Part shown: positions 31,002 to 32,222 of the stretch, in pieces
How positions within the stretch are numbered: the stretch's first letter is position 1
Layout of the letters: the number at the start of each line of letters is the position of its first letter
Source: Anaerohalosphaera lusitana
GTDB taxonomy: Bacteria; Planctomycetota; Phycisphaerae; Sedimentisphaerales; Anaerohalosphaeraceae
NCBI RefSeq assembly: GCF_002007645.1
Contig: NZ_CP019791.1
Coordinates: 806,001-870,000 of the forward strand
Length of the DNA stretch: 64,000 nucleotides
Reading direction: 5' to 3'
Notes under the pieces: generated by a model
The model's database searches: none
What the model was told of the DNA's origin: nothing
What the model saw: only the letters and a program-made list of their open reading frames with translations
Made by a program: the position numbers and the translations under genes

Positions 31002-31030
31002 TTGCCGTTGGGGTGGGGATGGGGTATAAT
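31002..31030 (+). promoter_or_regulatory. Predicted promoter upstream of the aldo/keto reductase gene
   Basis: TTGCCG, a 17-base spacer and TATAAT. Transcription from here would include the whole palindrome at 31055-31216 in a leader of about 195 bases. Together with the BNR-4 promoter this accounts for the gap 30784-31232. Confidence 0.55.
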
Positions 31031-31054
31031 GAAGTTTAGCTATGATCTTGTTCT

Positions 31055-31216
31055 AGAAGCGGTTTCAAAACTCAGATTTGCCTTTCGGCGGCCCTTTTTC
31101 CGTTCGGCTGCGTTGTGCAAAACCGTCAATAGAATAGCTATGGCCGGTTTTACACGCCTTGCCGACACGAAAAAATTGCTCGCCGGCAAGCCAAAAGCAG
31201 TTTTGAAACAGCTTCT
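31055..31216. repeat. 162-base imperfect palindrome (MITE-like or structured leader)
   Basis: The left arm (AGAAGCGGTTTCAAAACT at 31055) and right arm (AGTTTTGAAACAGCTTCT at 31199-31216) are reverse complements with one mismatch. The match continues inwards with gaps as far as GTGCAAAACCG (31115-31125) and CGGTTTTACAC (31145-31155). The centre is about 19 bases. A short ORF across it (31002-31229) is not credible as a gene. It ends 16 bases before the next start codon. Confidence 0.75.
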
Positions 31217-31232
31217 GATCTGGAGGTGAGGT

Positions 31233-32222
31233 ATGGAACGGCGTGATTTTTTGAAACGCGGTGTATTTACGACGGGGCTATTGACAATGGACAATCTCAA
31301 TCTTTTTGCTGATCCGAAAAATTGCCCGGTACGGACCGAACGGCGGCCGGGGTTTATTCCGAAACGCCAGTACGGCAAGACCGATCTTATGCTTTCGGTG
31401 ATCGGGTTCGGGGGCATTGTCGTGATGGGGCATGAACAAAATCAGGCCAACCGCATCGTGGCTGAGGCTTTCGAGCGGGGCGTGAACTATTATGACGTCG
31501 CGCCGTCGTATGGCGATACCGAGGCCGAGACCAAGCTGGGGCCGGCGCTGCAGCCGTATCGCGACCGGGCGTTCCTGGCGTGCAAGACGACCGAGCGGAC
31601 CTATGCGGGGGCGAAGGAAGAGTTCGAGGCCTCGCTGAAGCGGCTCAAGACCGATCATTTCGACCTGTATCAGCTTCACGCGATCACGGACGTGGAAAAG
31701 GATGTGGATGCAGCGTTCGCCGAGGACGGTGTGATGAAACTGCTGCGGGAGGAAAAGAAGAACGGCCGAATACGGTACCTGGGGTTTTCGGCGCATTCGC
31801 ATGCGGCGGCGCTGGCGGCGATGGACCGTTTCGATTTTGACTCGGTGCTGTTTCCGGTGAATTTTGCGGGGTATCTGGAGGGCGGGTTCAGTCCCGAGGT
31901 GATCGAGAAGGCCCGCGAAAAGCAGATGGCGATTTTGGCATTGAAGATGCTTGCGCGGCAGCGGGCGCCGAAGGAGGACCCGGTCCGCCGGCAGTATCCG
32001 AAGTGCTGGTATCAGCCGATTACGGATCCTGATGAGGCTAAGCTGGCGATGGCGTTTACGCTAAGTCAGCCGGTGACCGCTGCGATACCGCCGGGGCATG
32101 TGGATCTGTTTCGGATGGCGCTGGATGCGGCGACGGAGTTGGAACCGGTGACCGAACAGCAGATGCGGAAGCTGAAAAGCTGGGCGGCCGAGCTGAACCC
32201 GATCTTTTCGCATGAGGCGTGA
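31233..32222 (+). CDS. Aldo/keto reductase with Tat-like N-terminus
   Basis: 329 residues, preceded by GGAGGTGA. The start ERRDFLKRG is a Tat-type motif, although the following hydrophobic stretch is short. The AKR barrel shows YGKTDLMLSVIGFGGIVV, FERGVNYYDVAPSYGDTEA with the Asp and Tyr of the catalytic set, FLACKTTERTYAGAKEEF with the Lys, and HFDLYQLHAI with the His. These enzymes reduce carbonyls of sugars or other metabolites with NAD(P)H. Tat-bearing AKRs are common in planctomycetes. The substrate is unknown. Confidence 0.9.
   Translation: MERRDFLKRGVFTTGLLTMDNLNLFADPKNCPVRTERRPGFIPKRQYGKTDLMLSVIGFGGIVVMGHEQNQANRIVAEAFERGVNYYDVAPSYGDTEAETKLGPALQPYRDRAFLACKTTERTYAGAKEEFEASLKRLKTDHFDLYQLHAITDVEKDVDAAFAEDGVMKLLREEKKNGRIRYLGFSAHSHAAALAAMDRFDFDSVLFPVNFAGYLEGGFSPEVIEKAREKQMAILALKMLARQRAPKEDPVRRQYPKCWYQPITDPDEAKLAMAFTLSQPVTAAIPPGHVDLFRMALDAATELEPVTEQQMRKLKSWAAELNPIFSHEA

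Follow-up and report, generated by a model that had tools for sequence, protein, structure and literature searches.

A palindromic MITE in the leader of an aldo/keto reductase gene of Anaerohalosphaera lusitana and the hairpin core of its relatives

In the genome of Anaerohalosphaera lusitana, an imperfect palindrome separates a promoter-like site from the start codon of an aldo/keto reductase gene, raising the question of whether it is a leader RNA that belongs to the gene or a mobile element that landed in front of it, the two readings offered in the preliminary description of this DNA. The window referred to throughout is the whole 64,000-nucleotide stretch that was analyzed, positions 806001–870000 of a genome (G000) of 4,250,973 bases in one contig; coordinates given without further label are counted from its first base. 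With high confidence, the palindrome is interpreted here as an IS5-type MITE inserted at a TA in the leader of the gene, its hairpin core belonging to a wider superfamily and kept, most likely, by selection.

The palindrome and its copies

The outer arms of the palindrome, 31055–31072 (AGAAGCGGTTTCAAAACT) and the reverse complement of 31199–31216 (AGAAGCTGTTTCAAAACT), match at 17 of 18 positions and pairing continues, with gaps, up to the centre. The predicted RNA fold reaches −66.5 kcal/mol, shuffled sequences averaging −42.6 (z −6.1; equalled by none of 200 shuffles), confirming that the imperfect palindrome originally described is real. Its placement was also described correctly: it lies between a promoter-like site on the forward strand (TTGCCG-17-TATAAT, 31002–31030), detected solely as a consensus match of 10/12, and the forward-strand gene at 31233–32222 (PF00248, 89.3 bits, cut-off 24), which has GGAGG at 31222–31226, and the element stops 16 bases 5′ of the ATG at 31233. 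The extent proposed earlier, 31055–31216, holds for the palindrome and needs trimming for the mobile unit, which is the 160 bp at 31056–31215 on the forward strand, with ends GAAGCNGTTTCAAAACT (GAAGC...GCTTC); the A and T at the two extremes of the palindrome are part of the TA target site. The left TA occupies 31054–31055, and on the right, at 31216–31217, a decayed TG replaces TA. The 17-bp terminal inverted repeats, located by an end-pattern search, are GAAGCGGTTTCAAAACT on the left (31056–31072, forward strand) and GAAGCTGTTTCAAAACT on the right (31199–31215, reverse strand), and the only two exact matches to the pattern in the window are those of the element itself. Two short frames that cross the element have no Pfam match, and Rfam gave no match at gathering between 28000 and 34000.

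Searching the genome with the element returned 42 matches, several being opposite-strand self-matches of palindromes. Among them are 18 near-full-length copies of 142–163 bases with both ends (L001–L016, L020, and L021), whose alignment at both ends delimits the unit. TA stands on the left of 12 of the 18, on the right of 10, on both sides of 8, and on at least one side of 14, a count in which L015 was anchored one base off at its right end. The closest pair, the window copy and L002, is 98.8% identical, which suggests recent movement. Other copies adjoin unrelated genes. By mechanically called ORFs, no ORF of at least 100 aa spans 17 of the 18, L005 being the exception with one of 140 aa, while in L003 and L021 the next ORF’s first start codon falls inside the element. 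As regards a peptide reading, one frame of the element is open in 14 of the 18 copies versus 6% of shuffles, the copies being related to one another. The palindrome is thus short, ends in terminal inverted repeats, lacks a transposase, is present in many dispersed copies, often flanked by TA, and shares its ends with an insertion sequence described below: it is a MITE, a small non-autonomous transposon, and the genome search proposed in the preliminary description came out on that side. No match to the element was found in the plasmids and phages searched, nor did a core pattern occur in the viral_contigs collection. An exact core pattern was likewise absent from genome_contigs, a collection that may lack the organism’s own genome, and the pattern was narrow enough to miss relatives found later.

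Several copies depart from the standard form. L112 and L113 (G000:C1:951212-951467 and 3712247-3712502) share the same 98-base central hairpin insert, which itself contains short palindromes; as a separate repeat this insert was rejected, being present at only two places in the genome and having no Rfam match (none in L112 or L113 up to E 1). Three related, diverged copies, L023, L024, and L025 (G000:C1:4080796-4080930, 4016741-4016875, and 3006227-3006362), lie inside RHS-type genes, that of L023 matching PF05593 at 24.3 bits (cut-off 22). It is for these RHS copies only that an empty site was found, in the paralogue L196, and comparison with the three filled genes places the insertion at a TA with a net gain of 162 bases, or 54 codons. 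L023 and L024 keep the frame open across the element, L025 has it broken, and all three can be traced to one ancestral insertion into an RHS gene. Rickettsia palindromic elements are palindromic repeats translated in frame inside proteins, and in this two of the RHS-type genes resemble them; the present family differs in that its copies are mostly intergenic and its RHS trio stems from one ancestral insertion.

Copies are locally clustered: six copies or fragments fall within about 44 kb (G000:C1:1453217-1497212, at 1453217, 1460981, 1467154, 1470645, 1496322, and 1497052), and a 35-bp remnant at 1480594 lies inside this cluster. At G000:C1:1496322-1497212 (positions 1501–2391 of L013), two same-direction copies bracket a 189-aa gene that scores 23.5 bits against zf-dskA_traR, slightly below the cut-off of 24.9, and whose TAG stop takes its TA from the target site and its G from the start of the second copy. 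Copies L008, L010, L027, L028, L030, and L060 are flanked by another short repeat, GGGCCGCCGCAGAATTTAACAGCCGCGCCTCCGACG, or variants of it; within three mismatches, this repeat does not occur in the window.

The genome also holds much shorter derivatives. The 22-base palindrome GAAGCNGTTTCAAAACNGCTTC was found, with up to three mismatches, at 36 forward and 36 reverse places, as against 0 and 0 for the reversed pattern. With up to two mismatches there are 21 sites outside the full-length copies, four of which continue into the inner arm (genome positions 1094963, 1128144, 1532900, and 1933604). Seventeen 22-bp remnants, nine with TA on both sides and 15 with TA on at least one, are consistent with loss of the sequence between AAAC (or GTTT) repeats at the hairpin base, and two 35-base derivatives (L046 and L047) are consistent with a join at TTTG. 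In 58 other genomes, the 22-base pattern with up to two mismatches gave five sites. We infer that the 22-bp sites are scars of element collapse, a process for which the literature search found no description.

The hairpin core and its conservation

Relatives of the element were sought in 397 genomes across the class, scoring only two candidates per genome, and matches were obtained in 11 genomes including that of A. lusitana. Whole elements are present in four of the ten others (G373, G090, G129, and G237); the one in G373 is full length, 74% identical, and flanked by TA. In the other six (G052, G072, G096, G097, G199, and G225), the matches are only 23–31 bases long and probably due to chance, and a model of the core, R1, gave no match in the stretches fetched from five of them (all but G052). 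Model R1 was built from 14 sequences, including the window copy, and 15 of its 29 pairs change on both sides; the conserved core at 31081–31194 on the forward strand scores 123.2 bits against it, the window sequence being one of the 14. A scan with R1 of 350,340 bases of G237, in contigs not picked for matches, gave 18 matches representing 16 distinct copies, a density that extrapolates to roughly 300 copies in 6.5 Mb, and G373, G090, and G129 together gave one match in 288,657 bases. No match up to E 1 arose in 316,767 control bases (95 loci). In the A. lusitana genome, R1 additionally picked out a diverged core copy at positions 1319–1433 of L015 (38.1 bits) that adjoins the main L015 copy and was missed by BLAST, so that the genome probably has further diverged copies.

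The ends of these elements vary more widely. GAAGC ends occur in G373, G090, and G129, and those of G237 differ, falling into three kinds, GGCTNTGTCNGAAAACTC, GAGCYTGTCGGAGAATTC, and AAGAGCACCTACGCAAAATGA, with some copies having one end only; a fifth type, GAGCATCTCAAAGTTGA, was seen in a G090 copy. The differing ends may be diverged forms of one type. Common to these at least five kinds of terminal repeat is a shared core of about 114 nt.

An alignment of 37 copies (16 from A. lusitana, one from G373, three from G090, one from G129, and 16 from G237; left out, among others, were L002, L004, the main L015 copy, L021, L024, L025, and L244, L250, and L275 of G237) was used to examine this core. 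Pairing is possible in 86.4% of cells (shuffled mean 72.0), and both partners have changed in 22 of 29 pairs (152 cells), compared with 17 pairs and 63 cells in the best of 300 shuffles. Because one gap was shifted by hand in 25 of the 37 rows and the structure came from 14 of the included sequences, the count of 22 leans towards structure; RNAalifold on the unmended MAFFT alignment of the same 37 rows returned only 12 pairs and −1.94 kcal/mol. The inner helix is weak in G237, where columns 43–45 with 72–74 are mostly unpaired. Among the most conserved positions are the unpaired ones of an asymmetric internal loop (left side TGCRTY, right side YCYTT), with 89–100% conservation at six columns. 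In the window, its left side is TGCGTT (31109–31114, forward strand; columns 33, 34, and 36 conserved at 89%, 95%, and 100%) and its right side GCCTT (31156–31160, forward strand; columns 81, 83, and 84 at 97%, 100%, and 95%). As judged from these aligned sequences, the core folds as a hairpin whose stems covary and whose asymmetric internal loop is almost unchanged across five genomes.

Pairing is also maintained among the A. lusitana copies themselves. In 17 of them (without L021), 96.1% of cells pair and both partners vary in nine of 51 pairs, where shuffling gives 3.3 on average (none of 500 shuffles as high); further pair types are not raised (19 vs 19.6). Both-side changes above shuffled levels indicate that pairing has been kept, through selection or template switching. 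It is conceivable, though unlikely, that covariation in the whole family reflects a mutation process, namely template switching between arms or gene conversion, and that the elements are neutral MITE debris. According to one report, template switching can create and maintain hairpins with compensatory changes and so mimic compensatory evolution (PMC8794818); long, close arms such as these favour it, and the mutability of the palindrome is evident from its 22- and 35-bp remnants, which are joined at short repeats. Template switching should, however, even out an internal loop, yet the loop positions are among the most conserved in five genomes, and the core has been retained alongside no fewer than five kinds of ends. 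Selection on the hairpin itself, for the tolerance or spread of the element, is accordingly the most likely reading that we would draw, perhaps aided by template-switch mutation.

The leader, the gene, and the source of the transposase

It now seems very improbable that the palindrome evolved as a cis-acting leader RNA regulating the aldo/keto reductase gene. The element does lie wholly between the promoter-like site and the ribosome site and its predicted fold is strong, and over GGAGGT the predicted unpaired probabilities are 0.73, 0.56, 0.86, 0.75, 0.60, and 0.36 without it and 0.69, 0.30, 0.88, 0.85, 0.12, and 0.08 with it, only a modest predicted fall in accessibility where the preliminary description had suggested a possible limit on translation. 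Against this reading stand the element copies next to unrelated genes and the leaders of the orthologues. All 40 genomes searched have some aldo/keto reductase match, mostly paralogues, and ten of the best loci were compared (L219, whose match begins at residue 42, was excluded, and start codons are approximate). None of these ten 200-nt leaders carries the element and their folds range from z +1.0 to −2.6, compared with −3.8 for the window leader, which argues strongly against a leader RNA belonging to the gene and decides against the earlier proposal by the orthologue comparison that accompanied it. The closest orthologue found, in G012 (86% identical), has a different neighbour on its upstream side and lacks the palindrome; with no homology in the upstream region, it provides no empty site for the window copy. 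No near copy was found in 58 other relatives, in which there was one 23-base match only. Conserved pairing, which the preliminary description would have taken as the mark of a leader RNA, does exist, but it characterizes the family of mobile elements.

A likely source of the transposase was found through the ends. Allowing two mismatches, the end pattern occurs at 43 forward and 43 reverse places in the genome (reversed control, 4 and 1), and one locus, L044, is an 898-bp insertion sequence whose ends lie within one mismatch of the MITE pattern, with TA on both sides. It has overlapping frames at locus positions 1641–2060 and 1862–2413, with a run A7G5, that match PF13340 and PF01609 above their cut-offs; against the IS5-type profile NF033580, frame 2 scores 144.1 bits and frame 1 103.6 (cut-off 110), and by this transposase profile L044 is an IS5-type element. 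Its inner sequence has nothing in common with the MITE beyond the ends. L044 is the only full copy, the other DNA-level relative being a 215-base piece at genome positions 2809870–2810084. In other genomes, 270 relatives of its transposase were confirmed, 80 loci fetched, and 36 examined: 32 of the 36 have TTTCA-type ends that pair at 13 or more of 18 positions, TAGAAGC stands at either end of four (L114, L126, L142, and L163), and L122, L144, L145, and L154 do not fit the end pattern. It is scarcely credible that the genome’s abundant IS630-type transposases (32 DDE_3 matches, L064–L093) mobilize the MITE instead, since although IS630 elements use a TA target, which that of the MITE fits, their two multi-copy families in this genome end in TACGCATTGTGA and CTAGTGCCGTTTC, unlike the MITE, and were rejected as its parent on these ends, and the MITE pattern lies within two mismatches in one of 30 DDE_3 loci only, L069, which adjoins MITE copy L010. 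L044 may belong to the IS427 group of the IS5 family, with which it would share two overlapping frames with a putative slippery run for programmed frameshifting, inverted repeats, and a 2-bp duplication. Elements of that group are given as 832–865 bp long, with repeats of 13–21 bp and a mostly 2-bp duplication (PMC3281130), as against 898 bp and one full copy for L044.

A superfamily of hairpin elements

The course of events at this locus would then be as follows. A non-autonomous IS5-type MITE would have landed in the leader of the aldo/keto reductase gene, at a TA that follows the promoter and precedes the ribosome site, moved by the L044 transposase, or by a lost close relative, through recognition of the 17-bp ends, as the matching ends and TA flanks of L044 suggest. 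Within the leader, the element would be transcribed as a hairpin, which might be cut by RNase III, by analogy with Correia elements, or bound by a host protein; it would be cleaved or merely tolerated there rather than acting as a regulator evolved for the gene.

Correia repeat enclosed elements of Neisseria resemble the MITE in size, inverted-repeat ends, TA target, and many copies near genes. Their target is reported as TA, sometimes CA (PMC2649163), and one such element that separates mtrCDE from a native promoter is described as transcribed and cut by RNase III (PMC2649163; also PMC10969869). They differ in sequence and host, and the present family has an identifiable source insertion sequence and an asymmetric-loop core. 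REP/REPIN repeats are likewise short, palindromic, mobile, and intergenic; compared by description, they are distinguished by a length of 20–40 bp and by their own tags and transposases (PMC3733652, PMC3116915). A search of open-access papers found no description of the window element.

It is the class-wide superfamily, rather than the single insertion in the window, that is the interesting part. One tentative explanation, somewhat more doubtful than not, is that the core is a transposon-borne module: an invariant-loop hairpin long kept in the class, its ends replaced or diverged for different transposases, because the hairpin serves the element as RNA (processing, polarity protection) or as single-stranded DNA (host factor binding). 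Bacterial MITEs are usually regarded as leftovers of insertion sequences whose inside is free to vary. If the shape of the core and its loop outlast the ends, something inside a MITE is selected, and the core would constitute a testable module. The element family also supplies mRNA leaders with ready-made hairpins of 160 nt, gives rise to 22-bp scars, and has added 54 codons in frame to an RHS-type protein.
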